NCBI GenBank assembly: GCA_017410525.1
Contig: JAFQQQ010000002.1
Coordinates: 1-64,000, forward strand
Origin: Bacilli bacterium
Lineage (GTDB): Bacteria; Bacillota_I; Bacilli_A; RF39; UBA660
Length of the DNA stretch: 64,000 bases
Direction of reading: 5' to 3'
Shown here one piece after another: positions 31,188 to 46,279 of this stretch. Made by a program: the position numbers and the translations under genes. The number at the start of each line of letters is the position of its first letter. Position 1 is the stretch's first letter. Below the pieces are notes generated by a model, which worked only from the letters and a program-made list of their open reading frames with translations, was not told the DNA's origin and searched no databases.

Positions 31188-31273
31188 TTACTGTAAAAAT
31201 TATAATGTAATTAATCCAAAATGTTCATTTGATTAGTATTTTAATATGTGTTATAACCTTAATGGGTGAAAAA

Positions 31274-32161
31274 ATGAACTATTTAAATGATATAAAAAAC
31301 TTAATAGAAAAAGATATAGTATTAAATAAAAAACATAGATTGATAGAAGAAAACTCTAGATTAAATACTTATTTTGGGATTGGAAAACTTATAGTAGCGG
31401 CTCAAGGCGGAGAATTAAGAGCTAAATATGGAAATGGTTTAATAAAAGAATGGAGTAAGGAGTTAACTAAGTTATATGGTAAGGGTTATGATATATCTAA
31501 TTTAAAAAGAATGAGGAAACTTTATTTGATTTTTCAAAAAGGTGGCCCACTGGGCCACTTATCTTGGACACATTATAGATACATACTTCCAATAAAAGAT
31601 GAGTCAAAAAGAAATTATTATATTAATTTGTGTATAAAACAAAATCTAAGTAAAAATCAGTTAATTGAAAAGATAAAAAATAATGAGTATGAAAGATTAG
31701 AGTATAAAGATAATATAGAACTAATAACTAATGATAGTAGTGTTACAATAAAAGATATGATAAAGAATCCTATATTAATAAAAACCAATAATAGAGTGGA
31801 TAAATTAAGTGAGAAAGCGTTAAAGAAATTTATTTTAGAAAAGATAGAAGATTTTTTATTAGAACTAGGTTATGGGTTTACGTTTGTAGGTAGTGAATAT
31901 AAATTAGGTAATCATAAATGCGATTTATTATTCTTTAATTATGAACTTAATTCTTTTGTAGTTATAGAACTTAAAATAAGAAAATTAAAACCGATAGATA
32001 TAGGTCAAATAAAATATTATATGAATTATATAGATACAAATATAAAGAAAGATTATATGAATAAATCTATTGGAATAATTCTTTGTAAAGAAGATAATGA
32101 AATAGTTGTAAAGTATGTTACAGATGAAAGAATATTATTTAGTACTTATCAGTTAAATTAG
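31274..32161 (+). CDS. DUF1016/YhcG-type PDDEXK nuclease-family protein
   Basis: The 295-residue protein has a helical DNA-binding N-terminal domain (LNTYFGIGKLIVAAQGGELR, KYGNGLIKEWSKELTKLYG, LSWTHYRYILPI). A PDDEXK nuclease domain lies near 200-295, with LELGYGFTFVGSEY, the HKCDLLFFN Asp and the VIELKIRKLKP Glu-x-Lys. YhcG-family proteins often travel with restriction-modification loci or mobile elements; here it stands alone between terminators. The ATG at 31274 with GGGTGAA upstream is chosen over 31229. Confidence 0.87.
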   Translation: MNYLNDIKNLIEKDIVLNKKHRLIEENSRLNTYFGIGKLIVAAQGGELRAKYGNGLIKEWSKELTKLYGKGYDISNLKRMRKLYLIFQKGGPLGHLSWTHYRYILPIKDESKRNYYINLCIKQNLSKNQLIEKIKNNEYERLEYKDNIELITNDSSVTIKDMIKNPILIKTNNRVDKLSEKALKKFILEKIEDFLLELGYGFTFVGSEYKLGNHKCDLLFFNYELNSFVVIELKIRKLKPIDIGQIKYYMNYIDTNIKKDYMNKSIGIILCKEDNEIVVKYVTDERILFSTYQLN

Positions 32162-32206: not shown

Positions 32207-33187
32207 ATGTTTAAAATAGGTAATGTAGAAATAAAAAATAATGTAGTACTTGCTCCTATGGCTGGTATTTCTAATAGTGCATATCGTACTATAATAAAAG
32301 AAATGGGTGCAGGTTTAATAGTAGCAGAAATGGTTAGTGATAAAGCAATAATGTACGGTAGTAAAAAAACTATTGATATGCTTTATATGACTGAATATGA
32401 AAGACCTATTTCTCAGCAAATATTTGGTAGTGATAAGAAGTCTTTTGTAATAGCTGCCAAATATATATATGAAAATATGAAACCAGATATAATTGATATA
32501 AACATGGGATGTCCAGTACCTAAGGTTGCAATAGGATCCCAAGCAGGAAGTGCTCTTTTAAAAGATCCAAATAAAGTCTATGAAATAGTTAAAGCAGTAG
32601 TACAAAGTGTGCCTATACCAGTAACTGTAAAAATAAGAAGTGGTTGGGATGAAAGCAGTATAAATGCAGTTGAAATTGCTAAAGTAATAGAAAGTGCAGG
32701 CGCTAGTGCAATTACAGTACATCCAAGAACACGCGCTCAAGGTTATAGTGGTAAAGCTAATTGGAATATTATTAAACAGGTTAAAGAATCCGTTAGTATA
32801 CCTGTAATAGGTAATGGAGATATAAATAGTTGTTATGATGCTAAGAGAATGATAGATGAAACTAATTGTGATGCTGTTATGATAGGTAGAGGAGTATTAG
32901 GTAATCCTTGGTTAATAAAAGAATGTATAGATTATTTAGAAAAAGGAATAGAACCAAAAGAAATAAGTAAAAACGAAAAAATAGATATGATAAAAAAACA
33001 TTTGGATTTACTTATAGAAACTAAACCGTATAAAGTTGCTATGCTTGAAATAAGAAGTCATGCTGCTTGGTATTTAAAAGGGGTACCTAACACTAAAGAT
33101 TTAAAGGAAAGTATTTTTAAATCAAACACTAAAGAAGAATTAATAAAATTGTTAGATAATTATATGCTTGAACACAGCAAGGATTAA
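32207..33187 (+). CDS. dusB: tRNA dihydrouridine synthase
   Basis: Dus enzymes reduce uridine to dihydrouridine in tRNA using FMN. The 326-residue TIM barrel has NNVVLAPMAGISNSAYRTI at the start, the catalytic Cys in DINMGCPVPKV near 100, KIRSGWDESSINAVEIAK near 140, HPRTRAQGYSGKANW near 170 and GNGDI and GRGVLGNPW flavin motifs. GGTGG precedes the ATG at 32207. Its stop codon overlaps the stop of the sigK 3' part on the other strand. Confidence 0.94.
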   Translation: MFKIGNVEIKNNVVLAPMAGISNSAYRTIIKEMGAGLIVAEMVSDKAIMYGSKKTIDMLYMTEYERPISQQIFGSDKKSFVIAAKYIYENMKPDIIDINMGCPVPKVAIGSQAGSALLKDPNKVYEIVKAVVQSVPIPVTVKIRSGWDESSINAVEIAKVIESAGASAITVHPRTRAQGYSGKANWNIIKQVKESVSIPVIGNGDINSCYDAKRMIDETNCDAVMIGRGVLGNPWLIKECIDYLEKGIEPKEISKNEKIDMIKKHLDLLIETKPYKVAMLEIRSHAAWYLKGVPNTKDLKESIFKSNTKEELIKLLDNYMLEHSKD

Positions 33188-33204
33188 ACATCCTTGCTGT
33201 GTTT
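33171..33204. terminator. Bidirectional terminator for dusB and sigK
   Basis: AACACAGCAAGGAT and ATCCTTGCTGTGTT form a perfect 14-base stem across the two overlapping stop codons. Confidence 0.88.
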
Positions 33205-33555
33205 TAAAAATTCTCGGAGTATTTTAGTTAATGCTCTTTTTTCTATTCTAGAAACATAACTTCTAGAAATACCTAATTTTTTAGCTATTTCCTTTTGGGT
33301 TATTTCATCTTTGTCATTTAAACCATATCTTTCAGTAATTATTTTTTTTTCTCTATCTGTTAAAACAGAAAAATAAGTTTTTAAATCAGCAATATTATCA
33401 TCTTTATGGATATCAAGAGCAAAATCTGGAGCTGGAGTTTTTAATATATCTAATATTGTTATTTCATTTCCTTCTTTATCAAATCCAACAGAGTCATTTA
33501 TGCTTATGTCTTTGCTCCTTTTTTTATTGTTTCTAAAATACATTAAAATTTCATT
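33184..33555 (-). CDS. sigK: sigK 3' part: sigma-K regions 3-4 (spoIIIC-like)
   Basis: This is the C-terminal portion of mother-cell RNA polymerase sigma factor K. From the AAT at 33555-33553 it reads NEILMYFRNNKKRSKDISIN, then GFDKEGNEITILDIL. It includes the region 4 motif TQKEIAKKLGISRSYVSRIE, close to Bacillus SigK throughout. There are 122 codons after the junction Asn. It has no proper start; the upstream GTG/ATA codons belong to the recombinase end. After removal of the 6.9-kb element it joins in frame to the part at 40788-40462 to give a 231-residue SigK (Bacillus 241). Confidence 0.93.
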   Translation of the reverse strand, partial: NEILMYFRNNKKRSKDISINDSVGFDKEGNEITILDILKTPAPDFALDIHKDDNIADLKTYFSVLTDREKKIITERYGLNDKDEITQKEIAKKLGISRSYVSRIEKRALTKILREFLKHSKDV

Positions 33556-35320
33556 CGCTACTATCACTTAAAAGAACGATTTGTCCGCCATGAGTACTGG
33601 TTTCGGACGTTTCTGAACCCTCAAATACCGGTTGCATTGTTGTAGTGTGATTTCTTGAACCGATTAAGTCAATATGTATGTCTTTACCATCAGTTGAACA
33701 ATTACCAATAAATAACTTCAAGAAGTTTCTTTGTGATAGTAAATCAAGTTCAGTAAAGTTATTCATATAGTTATCAAGTATGTAGACAAGCATTTTAGCA
33801 GTTTCTTGGTCTGTGTAAGAGTCTGGTTGTTCTGCTTTTAACTCTTGAAGTTTCGCTACAACTTCCTTATCTTTTTGTTTTAATTCTTTTATTTTCTTTT
33901 GTACGTCATCAAATAATTCTTCATCAACATATTCAATACGAGAGATATAATTTTTAATACTAGCAAGGTTTTGGTTATGTTTCTTTTCTAAAACCTCAAT
34001 TTCATTAGTTTGGCTATTCTTACCATAGTTCTCATCTTTTATAACTTTAGCAAGTTCTTGATAGAACTGACTAGTAGGCTTAGCAAGTTGCTTAATACCG
34101 TCAATAACAAGTTTATCTGCCTCATTACCATTAACATTAGGACAATTACATTGTTTACCTCTAGACCTCATTTTAAGGTCGCATATATAGTTAAACTTCC
34201 TATCACCATTAGGTAGTGATGTATCTTTTAGTTTAGGTCGCATTAAGTTGCCACAATGTTCACATCTAAGTATTCCGGCTAGAATAGAATTGTTTTTAAC
34301 TGGCTTTCTATATGCTTTGTTTTGGTTGCTATTAAGAAGTGCTTGAACTTCTACCCAGTCTTTACCTCTGATAATTCCTTGATGTCTACCAATAGCATTT
34401 ATCCATAGTTCTTTGTCCTTAACTTTAGTGCTACCAGTTTTAGTTTTACTAGTTTTGTTATAACTCATAACACCATAGGTTCCGTCCCACTCATTTTCTT
34501 CATTGAAGATGTCCATATCATTGTCTTTAAAGTAGTTGAACATATCTATATCTGCAACTGCATAAACTGGGTTAGTTAATATCTTTTTAAGCCCCCAACG
34601 TGCAAAGTCGCACTCACGTCTAGTCTTTAGATTATTGTTAAGCAAAAACGTTTCTAGGGTGGTTAGAGACTTTAACTCAAGATATTTATCATATATTAGT
34701 TTTATGATTTCTAACTCATCATCAATAGGGCTTAATCTAAATAGAGAAACCTTTTTACCATTGATATTAAGTTTTTCCATTTTCTCAGAGTCAAAGCCCA
34801 TAGGTGTATTACCACCAAGCCAACGTCCAGTCTTAGCAAGTTCCATCATATTGTCTCTGATACGTTCTGCAATAGTCTCACGTTCTAGTTGTGCAAAGGT
34901 CATTGTTATCATAAGCATTGCACGTCCCATTGAAGTAGTAGTGTCAAAACTTTCTGATACACTTGCAAACTTAGTGTCATATTGTTCTAGTTCGTTATAC
35001 ATCTCACAGAAGTCTAGAACATTACGAGATAGTCTATCTAGTTTATATACAACTATCATCTTAACTTGTTTTTCTTTAACTAGAGCCATCATTTCTTGAA
35101 ACTGAGGACGTTTAACATCTTTACCACTAAAGCCCTCATCTTGTTTAATGATGATGTCCTCATCTTTAACATTTATATCGAATTTACTTTTAATGTAAGC
35201 CTTACATATCTCAATTTGGTTTTCTACTGATTCACCTTTACCAGTGAACTTAGATTTACGAGAATAGATTATGTACTTACGCAAATCATTTCTAATTTTT
35301 GCTATATCATCATTACCCAT
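33551..35320 (-). CDS. spoIVCA: Large serine recombinase (SpoIVCA-like) of the skin element
   Basis: The 589-residue site-specific recombinase would excise the element. The resolvase domain (about 14-165) has the nucleophile in YIIYSRKS (Ser23), YKLDRLSRN near 95 and ERETIAERIRDN near 145. A recombinase domain (about 185-290), a Cys zinc ribbon (CEHCGNLMRPK near 352 with later ICDL and CNCP), and a coiled coil (about 430-490) follow. It ends in a Ser/Thr/Glu tail (SETSETSTHG). Its stop TGA lies in the attachment core, so excision removes the stop and extends the frame. AAAGGAAG precedes the ATG, and an extended -10 (TGATATAAT) lies upstream. Confidence 0.93.
   Translation of the reverse strand: MGNDDIAKIRNDLRKYIIYSRKSKFTGKGESVENQIEICKAYIKSKFDINVKDEDIIIKQDEGFSGKDVKRPQFQEMMALVKEKQVKMIVVYKLDRLSRNVLDFCEMYNELEQYDTKFASVSESFDTTTSMGRAMLMITMTFAQLERETIAERIRDNMMELAKTGRWLGGNTPMGFDSEKMEKLNINGKKVSLFRLSPIDDELEIIKLIYDKYLELKSLTTLETFLLNNNLKTRRECDFARWGLKKILTNPVYAVADIDMFNYFKDNDMDIFNEENEWDGTYGVMSYNKTSKTKTGSTKVKDKELWINAIGRHQGIIRGKDWVEVQALLNSNQNKAYRKPVKNNSILAGILRCEHCGNLMRPKLKDTSLPNGDRKFNYICDLKMRSRGKQCNCPNVNGNEADKLVIDGIKQLAKPTSQFYQELAKVIKDENYGKNSQTNEIEVLEKKHNQNLASIKNYISRIEYVDEELFDDVQKKIKELKQKDKEVVAKLQELKAEQPDSYTDQETAKMLVYILDNYMNNFTELDLLSQRNFLKLFIGNCSTDGKDIHIDLIGSRNHTTTMQPVFEGSETSETSTHGGQIVLLSDSSE
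33552..33555 (-). other. Left skin attachment core (AATG)
   Basis: Minus strand AATG, followed by A from sigK to give AATGA, the same 5-base core reported for B. subtilis skin. The recombinase stop TGA (33553-33551) is formed here. Together with 40461-40464 it marks the ends of the element; exchange within AATG gives the sigK codons GAA AAT GAA ATT. Confidence 0.85.
33562..33577 (-). other. Left recombinase-binding arm of the attachment site
   Basis: It matches the right arm (40441-40456) in inverted orientation at 12 of 16 bases (shared TCAC, T, AAAGAAC). The two arms are equidistant from the AA of the AATG core when the circle is closed. Binding by the recombinase is inference. Confidence 0.5.
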
Positions 35321-35449
35321 AAAGCACTTCCTTTCTTTTAAGTGATTACATATATATTATATCACATAAACAAGAAAAATAATAGTAAATATGGGCAGAT
35401 TTTAAGGGAAAAGTGTGTTATAATAGTTGACTAACTGGAGATGATACTC

Positions 35450-36397
35450 GTGTCTTATACTAAAACTAAATTTCATAAAAAAGTTTTTGACTCTGCTAAT
35501 GGTATGCATAGATGTTTTTTGTTTTATATGTTATATAATGACGCTGAATACTATTCGTATCAATACCCAAAAGTATTTGATTTGTTAATATCAGTTAATA
35601 ATGCTTTATCAAAACGAGGTTTAAATAAAGAAAAAAGAATTGCTTTAGCAAAGAAAACAATTTCTGATACTTTTAATCATAAATATTATTTAGATACTAC
35701 AACAACAAGAGAAGAATGGTATAAAAGTTTTAAAGAAAATTCTTTTGGAATGAAACTAATAAAAAAACTTGAACAATGGGAAAATCTTTCAGAAAGCAAT
35801 TATGAAGAATATGTTAAAGAAATAATATGTTGGATTGAATATTTAGATGCAATTCATTTTGATTGGAAAGTAGATGGTGAAATAGTATACGAGAAAAGCC
35901 CATATACTAGAATAGCAAGAACATATAGTTTGGCTATTCATAATGACAAAGAATATGATAGTTTTAAGAAGATTTATAAAGATATGGTTTTTATTCAAGC
36001 AGATGAACTTGATAGTATGTGTGATGTAATATATGATTATTATTCCATCTTAGAAACAACGATTAACTCAATAGTAAGAAAAGATGACGAGGCTTTAAGT
36101 GATTTAATAAATTATTTTGAAGATAGTATTTTTATGAATGAGTTTAAAGATATCTACATACAAGCAAGTTATAACAAATTGAAAAAGGTTCAAGAGTATT
36201 TAGAAAAAAGATATTATGATAAAGCAAATAAAGAGTTGAGGAAGATAATTGAACTTGAAAACTATAAGTTTAATAAATATAAATTCAAGTTATTCAAATT
36301 ATTACAAGTAGACTTAAAAAATGATTTGTACCAAATTCCTTTATCAAAAGCAATAGAAGATTATGAAAAATATACAAAAAAATATATGACCTCTTAA
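35450..36397 (+). CDS. Unknown 315-residue skin-element protein
   Basis: Not recognised. A soluble, mostly helical protein rich in Tyr, Lys and Glu (FHKKVFDSANGMHRCFLFYM near the start; MVFIQADELDSMCDVIYDYY in the middle). It has no membrane segment and no obvious catalytic motif. It has its own promoter (TGTTATAAT at 35416-35424) and is divergent from the recombinase. The GTG at 35450 is chosen because GGAG (35437-35440) sits 9 bases upstream, whereas the ATG at 35441 abuts it. A terminator follows. Confidence 0.75.
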   Translation: MSYTKTKFHKKVFDSANGMHRCFLFYMLYNDAEYYSYQYPKVFDLLISVNNALSKRGLNKEKRIALAKKTISDTFNHKYYLDTTTTREEWYKSFKENSFGMKLIKKLEQWENLSESNYEEYVKEIICWIEYLDAIHFDWKVDGEIVYEKSPYTRIARTYSLAIHNDKEYDSFKKIYKDMVFIQADELDSMCDVIYDYYSILETTINSIVRKDDEALSDLINYFEDSIFMNEFKDIYIQASYNKLKKVQEYLEKRYYDKANKELRKIIELENYKFNKYKFKLFKLLQVDLKNDLYQIPLSKAIEDYEKYTKKYMTS

Positions 36398-36398
36398 A

Positions 36399-36433
36399 AA
36401 AATGTATGTGTAAAATCATATACATTTTTTTTG
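36399..36433. terminator. Terminator in the skin element
   Basis: AAATGTATGTG and CATATACATTT pair, with T's following. Confidence 0.75.
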
Positions 36434-36514
36434 CGATTTGATACTATGGTTATGCAAAGAAGAAACCGGTTTATTATTTGCACATAGGGGGAAAGGAGAT
36501 GTATTATCATCAAG

Positions 36515-36706
36515 TTGATTATTAACTTGCCAACTGATGATATTGGACAAAGTATGTTTGATGAACAATTTTCTAAACTACAAGCAAAATTAGTTGCAGA
36601 GTCAATAAAGAAACTTAATGTTGATGATACATCTAAACAAAAACTATGCTTAGGTGTTCTAGAACTACTTAATAATAAAGTCAAGGAGGTAAAGAAAAAT
36701 GACTGA
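36515..36706 (+). CDS. Small skin-element protein, paralogue A of a LIINLPTD family
   Basis: A protein of about 63 residues, unknown function. It aligns with the gene at 39774-39956 over its whole length (LIINLPTD, FSKLQ, LGV), so the two form a small family in this element. AAGGAG (36493-36498) lies upstream, but no ATG, GTG or TTG is at normal spacing. The paralogue's MKLIINLP start aligns with ATC-AAG-TTG here (36509), so initiation may be at ATC or ATT, or at the TTG at 36515. It overlaps the next gene. Confidence 0.65.
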   Translation: MIINLPTDDIGQSMFDEQFSKLQAKLVAESIKKLNVDDTSKQKLCLGVLELLNNKVKEVKKND

Positions 36707-37055
36707 TAGCGCAACTGCTAATGTAAATAATAAACAAAATGATATGAATAAAAAGGGAAATAGAAAAAAGACTACAAAGTCGCCTAGCGATATAAACGAA
36801 GAACAAATTATGAGATATGTACAAAGAGAATTTATAAAAGCATATATGTCTGCTTATGCTCAAAGAAGTATCACTGATAAAGAACTAGTTATGTTTACTA
36901 AATATCTAAAGAATATAAAACCAGTAAACACATCTAGCAACCATTATGTTAATAGACTAAAGAGTCTATGCAACGAGATGAAAGGTTATTATAGCCAATT
37001 TCAAAAACTTAATTACATCTTAGGTATAAATTTTAACCAAGATAGAACTAACTAA
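36699..37055 (+). CDS. Unknown 118-residue skin-element protein
   Basis: Not recognised. The N terminus is Asn/Lys rich and disordered (NNKQNDMNKKGNRKKTTKS). The remainder is helical with EEQIMRYVQREFIKAYMSAY and ELVMFTKYLKNIKPV. The basic character suggests nucleic-acid binding, but there is no named motif. AAGGAGGT precedes the ATG, and it overlaps the end of the preceding gene by 8 bases, so the two are coupled. Confidence 0.75.
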   Translation: MTDSATANVNNKQNDMNKKGNRKKTTKSPSDINEEQIMRYVQREFIKAYMSAYAQRSITDKELVMFTKYLKNIKPVNTSSNHYVNRLKSLCNEMKGYYSQFQKLNYILGINFNQDRTN

Positions 37056-37107
37056 GAACTAATCTAGAACTAGTTAACAACTAATTAGAACATCTAGCAA
37101 ACGTTTA

Positions 37108-37140
37108 AAATGTATAATTGTCAATAATTATACATTTTTT
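37108..37140 (+). terminator. Terminator after the 118-residue gene
   Basis: AAATGTATAATT-GTCA-ATAATTATACATTT stem followed by T's. Confidence 0.8.
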
Positions 37141-37197
37141 ATATATGAAACCTAGACTTTTTGTGCTATAATGATTATGGAAGGTAGGTTGTTATTT

Positions 37198-37725
37198 ATG
37201 TTTTCAAATGAAATTTATAAAAAACAAAATGGTTTTGTATTTGTAGTTCTTTCTTGGATTACGGCTTTCTTATTTTTGTTGCTACTAATTATAATTTTTA
37301 TGCCTGGTCAAATATCATATCCTGGTTTTTTGGAAAATTATGCTGATTTTCTAAGTATGTTCATAGGTTGGCTTTGTGTAATAGGTTTCGTTGGCTTTCC
37401 TTTATCATTGAGTTTATATAAAGGAATGAAAAATTTATATGTAAAGAGTGCATTGAAATTAGAAGACAACAAAATTATCTATAATAAACAAGCATCATAT
37501 GAATGGTCTGCTGTTGGACGTATTGATGAAAAGCATAATTTTTGTATAAGCAAAGTAAATAATTATGTTGTTTCAAAAAGATGGATTAAAATTGATGGAC
37601 AGATAGAGAAAACTATTATTAACAAAGATAGACATTTAGATACAAAAGAAGTTAGTAGTGTCAAGATAGCGCGTGCTTTTGATACAGACCAAAAAATAAT
37701 TGAATTTTTACAAAAATCAAAATAG
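37198..37725 (+). CDS. Unknown membrane protein of the skin element
   Basis: A 175-residue protein with two to three membrane helices: about 13-38 (VFVVLSWITAFLFLLLLIII) and 55-78 (MFIGWLCVIGFVGFPLSLSL). A soluble, charged C-terminal part (about 85-175) follows and has no known motif. The ATG at 37198 follows AAGGTAGG; the upstream ATG at 37171 precedes that site. TGCTATAAT lies just before. A hairpin follows. A role in the skin element is unknown. Confidence 0.75.
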   Translation: MFSNEIYKKQNGFVFVVLSWITAFLFLLLLIIIFMPGQISYPGFLENYADFLSMFIGWLCVIGFVGFPLSLSLYKGMKNLYVKSALKLEDNKIIYNKQASYEWSAVGRIDEKHNFCISKVNNYVVSKRWIKIDGQIEKTIINKDRHLDTKEVSSVKIARAFDTDQKIIEFLQKSK

Positions 37726-37726
37726 T

Positions 37727-37755
37727 ATATAGCGATTGCTATATGCTTTTTATTT
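37727..37755 (+). terminator. Terminator after the membrane protein gene
   Basis: ATATAGC-GATT-GCTATAT stem then a T-rich stretch. Confidence 0.65.
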
Positions 37756-37815
37756 TGCTAAAAATTATACAAAATTAGAGAAAAGTTCTAGGGAATCTAC
37801 TATATATATGAGGAG

Positions 37816-38001
37816 GTGTTAGATATTAAAGATTTGATACCATTAAAGGTTGCTAGTAAAGAACTAGGCATATCTTATAAAACTCTATATAGTTGGGTAA
37901 AGAACAATGAAGTGTCCTACACTAAAGTTGGTAATAGATACTACCTATCAAGTGAGCAATTGAACTCACTTGTTTTTGTTTTTACAAAATCTAGAAATTA
38001 G
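37816..38001 (+). CDS. Excisionase-like HTH protein
   Basis: A protein of about 60 residues with a MerR/excisionase-type winged helix: LIPLKVASKELGISYKTLYS followed by WVKNNEVSYTKVGNRYYLSS. It is a candidate recombination directionality factor for the recombinase, or a regulator. The GTG at 37816 overlaps the AGGAGG site (37811-37816) by one base, so it is an unlikely start. The ATT at 37825 is at ideal spacing (8 bases), and would remove only three residues. Confidence 0.75.
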   Translation: MLDIKDLIPLKVASKELGISYKTLYSWVKNNEVSYTKVGNRYYLSSEQLNSLVFVFTKSRN

Positions 38002-38351
38002 CCACCAAAAGATTTTATAATTTAATTGTAAAAATATAATGAGGTCATACCATAAGGCTTATAGGCATTATTTTAAGGCTTTCTACAAGGTTTTATGTGC
38101 AAGAGTATATTTATATATTATTATACTTCCTTGTATATATATCTAATAGTAGAGATGAACTTGTAAAATTATGATATGAGGATTTAAATTAGAAAAGAAT
38201 AAGAAGAACAATAAGCATTATAGCATTATTTTATAAGGAATTTATTAAAAATAGATACCAATGTATTGGTACGTAAGACACCAACTATATGGGCTCTATT
38301 GAAGTTATTTTTAAGCCAAAACTGGTATGTATTTTTACAAGGAGGAAACCA
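38002..38351. other. 350-base non-coding stretch of the skin element, candidate replication control region
   Basis: No credible gene on either strand. It holds a perfect 7-2-7 palindrome TACCAAT-GT-ATTGGTA (38256-38271) and imperfect direct repeats (GCATTATTTT near 38067 and 38223; AAGGCTT twice near 38054-38082), followed by a GGAGG site for the RepL-like gene. Placement upstream of a replication protein suggests an operator or origin. This is inference. Confidence 0.4.
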
Positions 38352-38879
38352 ATGGAACAATTAAAACGAAAGGAGATTAAGGAAGAAGAAGTTGTATGTA
38401 GTTTTATGGATACTGAAACTGGTGAAGTCAAATATACTTTACGTGAGGGGGATAGTATTCGTATTGATACAAGAGAACAAAAAGAATATAGAGATAATCA
38501 TAGATATATCAAGAAGAACAACTCATTTGTCAAAGTATATAAGGACACTATTGGTATTTTAGCAAAAGAAGAACTAACTAAAAGCGAGTTCAAGATTATT
38601 CTAACTGCACTAGCATACTTAGATAAAACTAGTGGCATACTCACCGAAGATGGTGTGAATATAGGAAAGCAAAGATTTATGGAATTAGTAGATATATCAC
38701 ACAATACATTTACTGAGGGTGTTAACCATTTAATAGAACTTAATATTATGGCAAGAACCAAGTCCGGTAAAAATAGTGTCTATCTAATGAATCCTTTTAT
38801 TTTTATGAACGGAACTTACATCAATGCAACTTTGTATAGAATATTTAAAAGAAGTAAATGGAATACCCAAAATGACTAG
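38352..38879 (+). CDS. RepL-like winged-helix replication protein
   Basis: A 175-residue protein resembling plasmid RepL initiators. It has FVKVYKDTIGILAKEELTKS near 60, a winged-helix part (ISHNTFTEGVNHLIELNIMA near 118), and the diagnostic end VYLMNPFIFMNGTYINATLY (VYxxNPxxxxxG). RepL proteins start rolling-circle-independent or phage-linked replication in small Firmicute plasmids. Its presence suggests the excised circle can, or once could, replicate. AGGAGGAAA precedes the ATG at 38352. Confidence 0.75.
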   Translation: MEQLKRKEIKEEEVVCSFMDTETGEVKYTLREGDSIRIDTREQKEYRDNHRYIKKNNSFVKVYKDTIGILAKEELTKSEFKIILTALAYLDKTSGILTEDGVNIGKQRFMELVDISHNTFTEGVNHLIELNIMARTKSGKNSVYLMNPFIFMNGTYINATLYRIFKRSKWNTQND

Positions 38880-38890
38880 GGAATTTTATG

Positions 38891-38924
38891 TAGGGGCATA
38901 GGGCTATATGTCCTTTTTTTTGTG
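38891..38924 (+). terminator. Terminator after the RepL-like gene
   Basis: GGGCATA and TATGTCC pair with a G-T pair, and T8 follows. Confidence 0.65.
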
Positions 38925-38968
38925 GTTGAATTACTAAACCTACCCCCACCCATATAATAGGAGGAACA

Positions 38969-39157
38969 ATGTTAACAAGATTTTATACACTAACTGAGAT
39001 AAGTGAAATGACACACACTTCAATACCTTATCTCAAAGGCTTAATAGATAAAGGAACGATTAAAGCAACTAAGACTTCAAAATGTTTTTTAGTTAATGAG
39101 TATGAGTTGCTCAAATTTTTAGAAAGTATGGAGGTAAAGCCAAATGAAAAACAATAA
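38969..39157 (+). CDS. Small HTH (excisionase-type) protein
   Basis: A 62-residue winged-helix protein of the Xis/HTH_17 type: FYTLTEISEMTHTSIPYLKG, then LIDKGTIKATKTSKCFLVN. It is a second candidate directionality factor or repressor in the element. AGGAGGAACA precedes the ATG. It overlaps the following gene by 14 bases. Confidence 0.78.
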   Translation: MLTRFYTLTEISEMTHTSIPYLKGLIDKGTIKATKTSKCFLVNEYELLKFLESMEVKPNEKQ

Positions 39158-39452
39158 GATAGATATAGAATTAGATGTGGAAGATTTATTAGGCTTACTT
39201 CCATATAAGAAAGGTACACTAGAATACGATTTGAACTTTATTATAGAAAATGGTATGGACAAGTATTTAGAAGTACAACAAGAACACGAAAATAAGAAAC
39301 GAGAGTTTATAGAATTATTCAAAGAGTGTTATAGTGATATAGTTAAGATTATGGAACTTGACCCACATAAAAGAGTTGCAGTAAATTGTTTTACTTGTAT
39401 CAAGGGTATGGACTTATCTAAGCAATATGGAAAGCCCAAAATAAAGGAATAA
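39144..39452 (+). CDS. Unknown 102-residue skin-element protein
   Basis: Not recognised. A charged, helical protein (KIDIELDVEDLLGLLPYKKG, then FIIENGMDKYLEVQQEHENK and the HKRVAVNCFTCIKGMDLSKQ end). No known motif. GGAGGT precedes the ATG, which lies inside the end of the HTH gene, so they are coupled. The stop lies in a palindromic terminator. Confidence 0.72.
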   Translation: MKNNKIDIELDVEDLLGLLPYKKGTLEYDLNFIIENGMDKYLEVQQEHENKKREFIELFKECYSDIVKIMELDPHKRVAVNCFTCIKGMDLSKQYGKPKIKE

Positions 39453-39475
39453 GACGTCTTATTCCTCTAATTTTT
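39446..39475. terminator. Palindromic bidirectional terminator
   Basis: A perfect 20-base palindrome with arms GGAATAAGA and TCTTATTCC, with T8 on the plus side; it lies between convergent genes. Confidence 0.75.
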
Positions 39476-39476
39476 T

Positions 39477-39719
39477 TTATTTATTGATTAACTCTTTGTA
39501 CAACTTAATTTGCTCAATGTTGTTTCTTTGAAACTCTAGTCTAAACTGTTCAAGAAGTTCTGCTTTGTGATGTTCTAGTAGTTTTCTATCACGTTTAGAT
39601 AGTTTGTTTTCATTTAACATTTGTTGAGTTAGCAGAAGTTCTATCATAGTGTTGTTTAGTTCTTCAGTCAAATTAAATCTTAGCTCCTCAATAGAATTAA
39701 CGTTTATCAGTTTTACCAC
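39477..39719 (-). CDS. Small helical protein of the skin element
   Basis: An 80-residue coiled-coil-like protein (LTEELNNTMIELLLTQQMLN, KLSKRDRKLLEHHKAELLEQ). Function unknown. The GTG at 39719 overlaps the AGGAGG site; a CTG at 39710 is at normal spacing, so the start is uncertain. It is divergent from the 60-residue gene at 39774. Confidence 0.6.
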   Translation of the reverse strand: MVKLINVNSIEELRFNLTEELNNTMIELLLTQQMLNENKLSKRDRKLLEHHKAELLEQFRLEFQRNNIEQIKLYKELINK

Positions 39720-39773
39720 CTCCTTTCGTGTTCAGTTTCAAAGTATTTAGTCATATACTTAACTGGTGATAGT

Positions 39774-39956
39774 GTGAAACTGATAATCAACTTACCAACT
39801 GATAAAGATGGTTGGTGTGAGTTCAATAGTGAGTTTTCTAAACTACAAAGTGAACTAGTTTTACTAGGTATTAGAAAATTAAATATTAGTTATGATGATA
39901 GAGAACGTGTACTACTAGGTGTTATAGATAAAATAAAAGAGAGACTTGCAGATTAA
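39774..39956 (+). CDS. Small skin-element protein, paralogue B of the LIINLPTD family
   Basis: A 60-residue unknown protein beginning MKLIINLPTDKDG. It aligns with the gene at 36515-36706 (FSKLQSELVLLGIRKLNI; LGVIDKIKE). GGTGAT precedes the GTG start. It overlaps the 3' end of the double-HTH gene on the other strand by 4 bases. Confidence 0.7.
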   Translation: MKLIINLPTDKDGWCEFNSEFSKLQSELVLLGIRKLNISYDDRERVLLGVIDKIKERLAD

Positions 39957-40345
39957 ATATAATCTTTCAGTCTCTCGTATTTTTTTCTACTTATCTGACA
40001 ATTTCCGTGTTCCCAACGTCTTACTGATGTATCACTTACACCAAGTAGTTCACCAAATTGTTGTATGGTGAGTTTTAATTTCTTTCTTGCTTTCCTTATT
40101 TTTTCACAAGGGTTATCAAGCAAGAACTTTATGTAGTCATCATTTATGTTGATTTCGTTTTCAATACCAAGTTCTTCTATTATTCCTTTTATTAGGTTGA
40201 CGTTTACCAATTTCATTTCACGATTTTCAAGGTGGTTTAGTGTACTTCTTTCAAAGTTTAGTTTAACACCTAAGTCAGTTTGCTTAACATCATTAAGTCT
40301 TCGGTAGTACTTGATTTGTTCACCTAACGTACTTTCAGACGTCAA
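39953..40345 (-). CDS. Double helix-turn-helix (XRE-type) ORF at the right end of the element
   Basis: At least 130 residues with two XRE-like HTH units: LGEQIKYYRRLNDVKQTDLG (about 7-60) and IRKARKKLKLTIQQFGELLG followed by VSDTSVRRWEHGN (about 80-130). The only start is a TTG at 40345 without a ribosome site. The frame is open for 39 more codons upstream to the attachment core, with coding-like sequence (LFDRTNDLFKRIG, THTCWNLTPL). It is in the same frame as the recombinase when the circle is closed, so this is probably the C-terminal part of a longer recombinase rather than an independent gene. Confidence 0.75.
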   Translation of the reverse strand: MTSESTLGEQIKYYRRLNDVKQTDLGVKLNFERSTLNHLENREMKLVNVNLIKGIIEELGIENEININDDYIKFLLDNPCEKIRKARKKLKLTIQQFGELLGVSDTSVRRWEHGNCQISRKKYERLKDYI

Positions 40346-40374
40346 AGGTGTTAAGTTCCAACACGTATGGGTTG

Positions 40375-40788
40375 TTAACGTATAAGAAAGTTGTAATTGT
40401 GTACCAATTCTTTTAAATAGGTCATTAGTTCGGTCAAAAAGTTCTTTGAGGTGAACATTGCATTTTCAATGCACCTAGCCGCATATGTAGTTAGTCTGGT
40501 ATTTTTCTTTTTAGAATAACTATCAACACCCTTAATAAGCCCTATAGTGCCTATACTTATTAAATCATCCGTATCTTCATTTTTGTTATCATATTTTTTT
40601 ACTATATGCGCTACTAATCTAAGATTGTGTTCTATTAGTTTTGATCTTGCCTCCTTATCTCCAAACTTTGCTTTCTCTACACATAAATCTTCTTCATCCT
40701 TAGTTAATGGATCAGGAAAACTATTGTTTGAATAAGCTGCAGAAAAAATATAGAAATCTTTAAATAATTTTTTTAAGAAATTAAACAT
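40375..40788 (-). CDS. sigK: sigK 5' part: sigma-K pro-sequence and region 2
   Basis: The N-terminal part of mother-cell sigma-K. The first 20 residues (FNFLKKLFKDFYIFSAAY) are a pro-sequence-like segment before NNSFPDPL, aligning with the Bacillus site processed by SpoIVFB. Region 2 follows: ARSKLIEHNLRLVAHIVKK, DLISIGTIGLIKGVDSY and RLTTYAARCIEN. The sigK codons end at Asn109 (40464-40462); the frame then reads 28 foreign codons of the element and stops. GAGGTG precedes the ATG at 40788. Active SigK would form only after excision joins this to 33555-33184. Confidence 0.93.
   Translation of the reverse strand: MFNFLKKLFKDFYIFSAAYSNNSFPDPLTKDEEDLCVEKAKFGDKEARSKLIEHNLRLVAHIVKKYDNKNEDTDDLISIGTIGLIKGVDSYSKKKNTRLTTYAARCIENAMFTSKNFLTELMTYLKELVHNYNFLIR
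40441..40456 (-). other. Right recombinase-binding arm of the attachment site
   Basis: Inverted match to 33562-33577 (12 of 16 bases), lying the same distance from the central AA of the core. Confidence 0.5.
40461..40464 (-). other. Right skin attachment core (AATG)
   Basis: Minus strand AATG within GAA AAT GCA of the sigK 5' part; partner of 33552-33555. Confidence 0.85.
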
Positions 40789-40803
40789 AAAACACCTCAA
40801 AAT

Positions 40804-40834
40804 ACTATATGCTTTACACATTTTGTCCTATTCT
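40804..40834 (-). promoter_or_regulatory. Sigma-E-like promoter of sigK with SpoIIID-like box
   Basis: On the minus strand, AGAATAGG (40834-40827) and CATATAGT (40811-40804) are 15 bases apart, close to a sigma-E promoter. TAGGACAAAA across the -35 matches the SpoIIID consensus (WWRRACARNY) at nine of ten positions. In B. subtilis sigK needs both sigma-E and SpoIIID. Confidence 0.5.
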
Positions 40835-40911
40835 GTGTAAATAAAATAAAAAAAATAGAAATATAGTTGAATAATAATTTTATATTGTTTAAAATAATAG
40901 TAGGTGATAGT

Positions 40912-41367
40912 ATGGCTATAACTAAAATAATAAGTGAAAATGAAAATAATATAAAAAATGCTACTATAGAAGGAATTAGTGGAGAGGCAGTAGGTGCTAC
41001 TTTGGAAGATGTTATAAGTGTTGCTGATTCTAAGGGAGCAACACCTATGCAAGTAAAAGATACTGTAGAGGCAATAGTTGAGATGAAAAGTGATGTTGAA
41101 AATAAAAATGATGAAAAATATGCATCAGAACTTTTAAAAGAAAATAGTGGGAAAATAGAAGAAGCAATAAGTACAGGGATAACGCCAAAAGAAGTTGCTA
41201 CTACTTTAGTTAATTCTACCAATAATTCTAATACTAGAAAAGGTAAAAATTGTTTAAGATTTCTTGTTAATTTAATTTCTAAAATGAAGAAAAAAGAGTT
41301 GAGATTAAATAAAAATAAAGAGAATGTAGAACAAAAAGGGTATCAGAAAGTTTATACTGATAAATAA
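40912..41367 (+). CDS. Unknown 151-residue protein
   Basis: Not recognised. The first 105 residues have repeated short helices (ENNIKNATIEGISGEAVGAT, KDTVEAIVEMKSDVENKN, KIEEAISTGITPKEVATTLV). The basic tail (KMKKKELRLNKNKENVEQK) has no motif. GGTGAT precedes the ATG. It is divergent from sigK, and its upstream region overlaps the sigK promoter region, so coregulation is possible. Confidence 0.72.
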   Translation: MAITKIISENENNIKNATIEGISGEAVGATLEDVISVADSKGATPMQVKDTVEAIVEMKSDVENKNDEKYASELLKENSGKIEEAISTGITPKEVATTLVNSTNNSNTRKGKNCLRFLVNLISKMKKKELRLNKNKENVEQKGYQKVYTDK

Positions 41368-41369
41368 TA

Positions 41370-41398
41370 TTGACTAAATAGGTCATAAGTGTTAAAAT
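41370..41398 (+). promoter_or_regulatory. Promoter of the serS leader
   Basis: TTGACT (41370-41375), a 17-base spacer and TAAAAT (41393-41398). Confidence 0.65.
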
Positions 41399-41410
41399 AA
41401 TTACATAAAT

Positions 41411-41592
41411 CGTTGATGGAGAATAGTAATAAAATATTATTTTAAAGAGAGTTAATGGTTGGTGAGAATTAACACTTGTATTTTATGAATCTACTCCTAA
41501 GAGGAATTAATAATTCCCGGTAATGCCGTTATACTAATTAAGACTATTGTTAGGATGGTACCGTGCTAGGCACTCCTAATAGTGGTCTTTTA
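41411..41592 (+). promoter_or_regulatory. Serine T-box riboswitch
   Basis: The T-box sequence AGGATGGTACCGTGC (41552-41566) and a downstream terminator (GACTATTGTTAGGA with TCCTAATAGTGGTC, then T's) are clear. A stem-I region lies near 41425-41500, with a possible UCU serine specifier at 41490-41492 (GAATCTAC). Uncharged tRNA-Ser would bind the T-box and prevent termination, turning on serS. Confidence 0.88.
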
Positions 41593-41612
41593 TTTGTTTT
41601 AAGGAGGAAAAT

Positions 41613-45409: not shown

Positions 45410-46279
45410 ATGAATGAATTACAAGAAATAAAAATAGAGAATCTTATATATGAGATTAGGGGTAAACAAGTAATGTTGGATAGCGATGTTGCTAGATTGT
45501 TTGGATATGAAACTAAAAATTTAAACAGACAAGTTCAAAGAAACCAAGAAAGATTTCCTAAGAACTATTGTTTTAAATTGACGGAAGATGAATATAAAAA
45601 CTTGAGGTGCCAAAATATCACCTCAAGTTTGGAAGAAAATTATGGTGGAAGAAGATATTTGCCATATGTATTTACTGAGTATGGAATAACCATGTTAGCT
45701 GGAATATTAAAAAGTCAAATTGCAGTAAAGACTAGTTTAAAAATAGTGGATGCATTTATAAATATGAGAAAGTTTTTAAATGAAAACAAAGATATATTTA
45801 AGAGATTAATAATGACAGAATATAAAATTTTAGAACATGATTCTAAAATTAATGAATTATTTGATAGATTAGAACCTAAAAAATTAGAGAAACAAAAAAT
45901 ATTTTTTAATGGCGAAATATATGATGGTTATAGTTTAATAATAGATTTAATTAAAGAAGCAAAGAGTAGAATAATCATAATAGATAATTATATAGATAAA
46001 AGTATATTAGATATGTTAGTTTATAAAAAAGAATATGTAAGTGTAGAACTAATAGCTAGTAGTCATTATTTAACTGAGTCTGATATAACTAAGTTTAATA
46101 AACAATATCCTAATTTAAAAATAAAGTATAGTAATATTTTTCATGATAGATTTATAATCATAGATGATAATTTATACCACTTAGGAGCATCCTTAAAAGA
46201 TTTAGGTAAGAAATGTTTTGGAATAAATAAAATAGAAGATAAGGATTATTTAAATAAAATTTTAACAACTATCGATTGA
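45410..46279 (+). CDS. ORF6N-domain protein with a PLD-like C-terminal domain
   Basis: A 289-residue protein. The N-terminal ORF6N domain (about 5-95) shows the pattern VMLDSDVARLFGYETKNLNR, QVQRNQERFPKNYCF, YLPYVFTEYGITMLAGIL. A linker helix follows. The C-terminal part (about 165-285) resembles a phospholipase D-like fold: IDLIKEAKSRIIIIDNYID and HDRFIIIDDNLYHLGASLKD. ORF6N proteins are typical of phages and defence islands; the gene is probably transferred. AGGAGG precedes the ATG. No other defence genes are adjacent. Confidence 0.85.
   Translation: MNELQEIKIENLIYEIRGKQVMLDSDVARLFGYETKNLNRQVQRNQERFPKNYCFKLTEDEYKNLRCQNITSSLEENYGGRRYLPYVFTEYGITMLAGILKSQIAVKTSLKIVDAFINMRKFLNENKDIFKRLIMTEYKILEHDSKINELFDRLEPKKLEKQKIFFNGEIYDGYSLIIDLIKEAKSRIIIIDNYIDKSILDMLVYKKEYVSVELIASSHYLTESDITKFNKQYPNLKIKYSNIFHDRFIIIDDNLYHLGASLKDLGKKCFGINKIEDKDYLNKILTTID

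Follow-up and report, generated by a model that had tools for sequence, protein, structure and literature searches.

A sigK-intervening element with a candidate replication cassette in an RF39 bacterium

The skin elements of Bacillus subtilis and Clostridioides difficile are the closest described systems to the element studied here, which lies in a 64,000-nucleotide stretch of DNA (the window; positions 1 to 64,000 of contig JAFQQQ010000002.1, assembly GCA_017410525.1) from a Bacilli bacterium of the RF39 lineage. Like these skins, the window element is inserted in sigK and encodes a large serine recombinase, and its excision is predicted to restore sigK. The known skins are described as prophage-like, whereas in the window element no phage gene was recognised; it carries a replication-like gene cassette and, in orf60, a candidate recombination directionality factor (RDF). 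The RDF of the C. difficile skin is CD1234, a protein of 72 amino acids (aa) (PMC5025042). The genome carrying the window element has 1.04 Mb on 10 contigs and is 95% complete. A survey predicts sporulation in RF39, and in its text 'sigK' occurs once and 'skin' nowhere (PMC10868615).

There is a printed precedent for a gene-intervening element of non-phage type, the gin element in gerE of B. cereus, which has no phage genes and uses the recombinase GirC together with the small factor GirX (PMC5595907). The authors of that paper suggest a composite plasmid and prophage origin. The gin element differs from the window element in its target gene and its three recombinases, and the stem 'replicat' is absent from the text of the paper. 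In SPbeta and phi3T, the integrase and RDF genes lie at opposite ends and become neighbours across attP in the circle (PMC6957869); unlike the window element, these are full phages with other target genes.

Further away are the satellites of the phage-inducible chromosomal island (PICI) type, the PICI-like element PLE and Salmonella genomic island 1 (SGI1), which are integrated islands; they can excise, and their replication takes place with a helper or by way of one. In the window element no helper, packaging or mobilisation function was identified. Staphylococcal cassette chromosome (SCC) elements, with the recombinases CcrA, CcrB and CcrC, are likewise non-phage mobile cassettes, and the window recombinase matches the CcrB and CcrC models of NCBIfam (E 1.1e-36 and 5.6e-31, respectively), with scores well short of the cut-offs, but the cargo is unrelated. 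SCC elements use another target gene. They may also replicate; our literature search turned up no paper on SCC replication. Among the papers found and judged by title or the start of the abstract, with subscription journals mostly outside the coverage, none described a replicating skin.

The window element divides sigK into two halves, both on the minus strand (Table 1), and measures 6,909 bases (about 6.9 kb) from core to core. Fusing the halves at the AATG core gives an open reading frame (ORF) of 242 aa, of which 227 residues match the intact sigK of genome G009, our reference, which is labelled as the window's own genus and has matching neighbours. As it splits sigK and its precise removal is predicted to restore the ORF, we class it as a sigK-intervening (skin) element. 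Inside it, adjoining the attachment (att) site, lies the gene for a predicted site-specific recombinase, a large serine recombinase of 589 aa, whose relatives with 77-93% identity likewise adjoin sigK halves. From this end, the gene order is recombinase (minus strand), a 318-aa ORF, orf63, orf118, a 184-aa ORF and helix-turn-helix (HTH) gene 1, followed by a 350-base non-coding stretch, the RepL-like ORF, HTH gene 2, orf102, orf80m (minus strand), orf60 and an Xre regulator (minus strand). A first-pass annotation of this DNA had reported two excisionase-like HTH genes and no phage or conjugation genes. We find both HTH genes, the first above and the second below the family cut-offs, and in the cargo ORFs that were scanned we recognised no family for phage structure, packaging, relaxases or conjugation. 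Judged by this gene content, the window element would be neither a prophage, which is known by structural and packaging genes, nor an integrative and conjugative or integrative and mobilisable element, which is known by relaxase or conjugation genes.

At the end opposite the recombinase lies orf60. A hidden Markov model (HMM) of its family (57-69 aa) finds 14 ORFs at E < 1e-3 among 1,872. The family is found in 11 of the 16 recombinase-bearing loci (the window, L005, G242, L007, L008, L054, L056, L057, L059, L060 and L061), a count that omits L062 and L047, where recombinase identity is as low as 22-26%. It was not found in L052, L053, L055 and L058, which have no sigK 5' half in the stretch read, nor in L009, a Lachnospiraceae locus in which no sigK half was found. 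Both sigK halves could be read for six skins, and in each of these orf60 lies on the sigK 5' side, across the element from the recombinase. Not all of the 11 loci are in sigK, as no sigK half was seen in the orf60-bearing L056, L059, L060 and L061. A CATATA box before orf60 is conserved in five of five cases, and the predicted structure is a two-helix hairpin with a predicted local distance difference test score (pLDDT) of 91.4. Of the two paralogues orf63 and orf60, only orf60 is at an element end. Because its position opposite the recombinase matches the SPbeta/phi3T layout and known skin RDFs are small, we propose orf60, by analogy, as the candidate RDF.

Five close skins were compared, namely those of the window, L005, G242 (on the two contigs L041 and L042), G006 (L007) and L008; by its label, G006 shares the window's genus, and G242 belongs to another. 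Synonymous (dS) and nonsynonymous (dN) divergence was taken from Nei-Gojobori counts, in which a dS above 1 is near saturation and reads as 'older' rather than as a number. Between G006 and G242, the recombinase has dS 0.17 and dN 0.034, compared with dS 0.92 and dN 0.24 for the sigK 3' half. Between L005 and G242, the corresponding values are dS 0.38 and dN 0.029 for the recombinase and dS 0.92 and dN 0.306 for the sigK 3' half. Vertical descent fails to explain a recombinase divergence so far below that of the sigK 3' half, so horizontal transfer of the recombination unit between genera is well supported by these sequence comparisons. The distribution of the genes was surveyed in 386 genomes of the family: the recombinase has a match in 11 (E 1e-60 or better), the RepL-like protein in 14 and sigK in 325, and among the sigK matches listed most frames are intact. 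The cassette appears to have a history of its own, since between the window and L005 the recombinase, Xre, orf60 and orf118 genes have dS 0.59-0.77 and the RepL cassette genes 1.48-2.39, with orf102 beyond estimation.

The same cassette is found away from sigK. In G093, which is labelled as another genus, a 93% identical RepL-like protein is encoded together with relatives of both HTH genes, orf102 and orf80m, adjoining a tRNA-Arg gene; the 12.4 kb read there contain no sigK half and no recombinase match. Distant versions of the RepL-like gene lie beside tRNA-Arg in G105 and beside tRNA-Lys in G250. The tRNA-Lys element of G250 is fully bounded by direct repeats of 42-43 bases, one at the tRNA 3' end and one 10,459 bases further (about 10.5 kb), and carries a tyrosine integrase (Pfam: PF00589; E 1.1e-25), an Xis-like HTH gene, the RepL-like gene and relatives of orf80m and orf118. 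By HMM, orf80m relatives stand beside RepL-like genes in the window, L005, L041, L040, L046, L049, L050 and L066; since the RepL-like gene was the reason for choosing the majority of these loci, the number is not an independent frequency. These comparisons support a replication-like cassette common to the window skin and to elements that appear to be integrated at tRNA genes.

The RepL-like family also occurs in prophage-like loci: distant relatives are found in L045, L048 and L051, all of which have terminases. For this reason, the RepL-like protein leaves it undecided whether the element is plasmid-related rather than phage-related. The first-pass annotation had proposed a plasmid-like integrative element rather than a prophage. 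The integrative nature of the element, without recognisable phage genes, is supported by the cassette in tRNA elements and by the transfer of the recombinase unit.

The RepL-like ORF is preceded by a Shine-Dalgarno-like AGGAGG. Its product had been taken for a RepL-like initiator, with the lack of a RepL match by profile search named as evidence to the contrary. The ORF exists as described, and no match to RepL (Pfam: PF05732) was found: the family is absent among the first 25 of the 34 families shown for 14 aligned relatives, and a PF05732 profile search of the genome has its best place elsewhere (E 0.04). Judged by profiles, the label 'RepL' is too specific for this product. Other replication-initiation families match weakly. 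Phage_rep_O (Pfam: PF04492) is the only Pfam family at E 1 or better (E 0.0025), below cut-off with 18.7 of the 28.7 bits needed, and the N-terminal domain model of phage replication protein O (TIGR01610) reaches E 5.7e-5 with 23.5 of the 45.5 bits needed. Among the 14 relatives, four match the PHROG replication-initiation family phrog_270 (best 4e-5) and five match phrog_678 (best 5.6e-4). The structure model (mean pLDDT 77.8) includes a winged helix. Rank 3 in BFVD, a collection of predicted viral proteins, is a 'Firmicute plasmid replication protein (RepL)' (E 1.6e-4). A search of plasmid record proteins gave one weak match, a RepL-annotated protein of Arsenophonus (24%, E 0.02), and a search of phage record proteins gave none. 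Three distant relatives searched against the plasmid records and one against the phage records had no matches, and viral contigs held no relative of the recombinase, the RepL-like protein or two distant RepL-like queries. Sequence search of solved structures returned nothing useful.

The gene appears to be under purifying selection, because between the window and G093 the proteins are 92.6% identical with dN 0.046 at a dS of 1.81. We consider a winged-helix replication initiator to be the likelier identity of the protein, and initiator function is predicted as probable. A winged-helix transcription regulator of the element is a rather unlikely but serious alternative. It would fit the PDB matches of the model, which are mostly MarR/ArsR regulators, the several relatives whose best Pfam match is a MarR or other HTH model, and the region 5' of the gene, in which clear iterons were not seen. 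It is less easily reconciled with the replication-initiation families in TIGRFAM and PHROGs that the protein or its relatives match, or with a second fold comparison, in which the initiators 4pql and 4pt7 align over 85 residues (Z 8.7 and 8.6), though tied with many transcription regulators.

The 350-base region upstream of the RepL-like gene had been noted for a palindrome and direct repeats. The region itself proved to be conserved, with 70.6% identity between the window and G093 against a mean of 47.0% and a maximum of 53.9% for shuffles, and 62.7-70.6% between the window and three other elements against shuffle means of 47-50%. Constraint on this non-coding DNA is suggested because at the synonymous sites of the RepL-like genes the window and G093 are only about 32% identical (proportion of synonymous differences, pS, 0.683). 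The palindrome did not hold up as an origin: the best one in 38002-38351 is no better than those of shuffles (p 0.38). Another palindrome, at 37950-37971, overlaps the 3' end of HTH gene 1 and is followed by a T-rich run, and its arms differ together in three other elements; in our reading it would be a terminator and not an origin. The motif TACCA/TGGTA, which was picked post hoc, occurs four times in the region where 1.04 copies are expected (p 0.0145).

Besides the RepL-like cassette, other payloads are found next to the same type of recombinase. The more distant sigK element of G298 (L054:2084-4663) has a 355-aa protein with matches to Viral_Rep (E 7.1e-6) and RNA_helicase (E 2.8e-4), resembling the Rep of circular Rep-encoding single-stranded (CRESS) DNA viruses, plus ORFs weakly like FtsK. 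The sigK element of G237 has type III restriction-modification genes (L057:12049-15911), for a methylase and a restriction subunit. In G300 (L052:460-7070), a type IIG restriction-methylation protein and an HKD/SNF2 helicase like that of the defence island system associated with restriction-modification (DISARM) lie beside the skin recombinase. Because the cargo differs among G298, G237 and G300, a common chassis with changing payloads is supported. The RepL-like gene is dispensable for the presence of a skin, as between its sigK halves the minimal skin of L008 has only the recombinase gene, orf60 and a single ORF of 277 aa.

Three further observations concern these loci. Inside the G237 skin, a 501-aa protein (L057:17711-19216) has a weak class I lysyl-tRNA-synthetase match (E 0.0069). 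For G300, we considered that excised and integrated forms might coexist, but its two sigK stretches, intact in L070 and at the skin in L052, are only 86% identical, and a mix of strains or species is likelier. A possible skin in G157 (contig C12) was set aside, as the sigK 3' half there lies in a 129-aa frame near the contig end with nothing further readable.

The evidence as a whole leads us to favour, with moderate confidence, a small integrative mobile element with sigK as its att site, in which a recombinase/orf60 unit is combined with a swappable cassette, likely for replication of the circle. The large serine recombinase at one end and orf60, as presumed directionality factor, at the other would form the recombination unit. 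During sporulation they would, by analogy with the known skins, cut the element out in the mother cell and so make sigK whole again. In passage from host to host, the circle would bear the swappable cassette of HTH gene 1, conserved region, RepL-like gene, HTH gene 2, orf102 and orf80m. The likely job of the cassette would be to initiate replication of this circle, which would allow the element to survive excision in growing cells or during transfer. Transfer might go by a helper plasmid, a helper phage or another route, none of which is encoded in the element.

A wider proposal is offered more tentatively, and we would not be surprised to see it fail. According to it, sigK would be a dock for non-viral, plasmid-like elements in small-genome gut Bacilli, whose circles would replicate after excision. 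These elements would have a common unit (recombinase - attP - Xre - orf60) with exchangeable payloads, namely the RepL-like cassette here, the CRESS-like Rep with FtsK-like genes in G298 and restriction systems in G237 and G300. They would spread between genera and be tolerated because their own excision frees sigK when sporulation requires it.

A number of observations speak against an element of this kind that replicates as a circle. The RepL-like gene is intact in only two of the five close skins (window and L005); it is frameshifted in G242, possibly by an assembly error, decayed in G006 and was not found in L008. Its product has no Pfam match above cut-off, and the PDB fold matches of its model are ordinary winged helices, none with E < 0.001. 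There is no significant palindrome in 38002-38351. The two-helix model of orf60 has no informative PDB match, and no convincing sigma-E -35 element was seen by eye before the gene. Finally, the dS values above 1 are near saturation.

An unlikely alternative to the integrative mobile element is a minimalist phage satellite packaged by helper prophages, in which the RepL-like protein would replicate the element after induction and excision at sporulation would be secondary. The presence of an integrase, Xis-like genes, an Xre regulator and an initiator-like gene without structural genes fits such a satellite, as do the distant RepL-like relatives in the terminase loci L045, L048 and L051. Phage-inducible chromosomal minimalist islands (PICMIs) are satellites of reduced gene content without capsid-remodelling genes. 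However, no packaging or capsid-interference gene was recognised in the window element, and the RepL-like queries found nothing in viral contigs or phage records.

We regard a decayed prophage, that is a normal phage stripped of its structural genes but still carrying a replication gene, as improbable. Known skins are described as prophage-like (PMC5595907), and active phages integrate in sigK too (PMC13141910). Against this, no cargo ORF scanned matches a phage-structural family, the same cassette makes a compact bounded element without recognised structural genes, and purifying selection on the RepL-like gene together with recent movement of the recombinase unit is ill-suited to mere decay. 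Least probable of all is a domesticated skin that acts as a fixed timer of sporulation, is no longer mobile and carries neutral leftovers as cargo. It would suit the minimal skin of L008 and the decay of the RepL-like gene in G006. For the recombinase unit it is contradicted, unless sigK was the gene exchanged, by the low divergence of the recombinase between genera compared with sigK. The presence of the recombinase in so few of the family genomes (11), although 325 have sigK, also speaks against it.

The coordinates of the features are collected in Table 1. For the 318-aa ORF no family was matched in domain and family scans, and for the 184-aa ORF no relative was found in the other loci searched. 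PADLOC assigned no defence family to the three window ORFs submitted (318, 184 and 102 aa), and Rfam had no match within 33000-41600. Outside the element, a YhcG/DUF1016-type nuclease gene is found near the sigK flank (31229-32161), and a 289-aa ORF (45410-46279) has an N-terminus that, judged by eye, is like phage antirepressor (ORF6N/KilA-N) proteins.

Table 1. Features of the sigK-intervening element and its boundaries, in window positions
Feature	Position	Strand	Evidence
sigK 3' half	33184..33567	-	Sigma70_r4 E 4.4e-16; SigK C-terminal half NF004471 E 7.7e-44
AATG common core (CATT on +), recombinase-side junction	33552..33555	.	Junction comparison
Large serine recombinase, 589 aa, one end of element	33551..35320	-	Resolvase, Recombinase and zinc-ribbon domains
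318-aa ORF without assigned family	35441..36397	+	Distant relative in L005, 28% over 257 aa
orf63, paralogue of orf60	36515..36706	+	46.6% to orf60; same HMM family
orf118, backbone gene, also in tRNA-Lys element	36699..37055	+	First-pass HMM: L050 E 2.5e-8, L046 E 4.6e-6
184-aa ORF, variable cargo	37171..37725	+	N-terminal half hydrophobic by inspection; no significant family
Excisionase-like HTH protein 1	37816..38001	+	HTH_17 E 5.6e-7, TIGR01764 E 4e-7, both above cut-off
Putative terminator (palindrome plus T-rich tail) at the HTH gene 1 3' end	37950..37971	+	Arms covary between elements
Conserved non-coding region 5' of RepL-like gene; operator or origin candidate	38002..38351	+	Conservation; TACCA/TGGTA boxes
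RepL-like winged-helix protein, 175 aa, candidate replication initiator	38352..38879	+	TIGR01610, PHROG matches of relatives, model
Excisionase-like HTH protein 2	38969..39157	+	HTH_17 E 2.1e-5, TIGR01764 E 3.8e-5, both below cut-off
orf102	39144..39452	+	Adjoins RepL-like gene also in L005, G242 and G093
orf80m	39477..39719	-	Neighbours RepL-like genes in both skin and tRNA elements
orf60, candidate RDF, end opposite recombinase	39774..39956	+	Family conservation; two-helix model
Xre-type regulator, two HTH stretches	39953..40345	-	HTH_3 E 1.1e-12; 90% identical in L005
sigK 5' half, extends into element	40375..40821	-	Sigma70_r2 E 2e-14; NF004471 E 9.5e-46
AATG common core (CATT on +), regulator-side junction	40461..40464	.	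Junction comparison and sequence

Elements that interrupt sporulation genes have mostly been described as prophage-like. The window element yields a testable candidate for a directionality factor and raises the question of whether such circles replicate. If the explanation favoured here is true, plasmid-like or satellite-like parasites can maintain developmental gene rearrangements.

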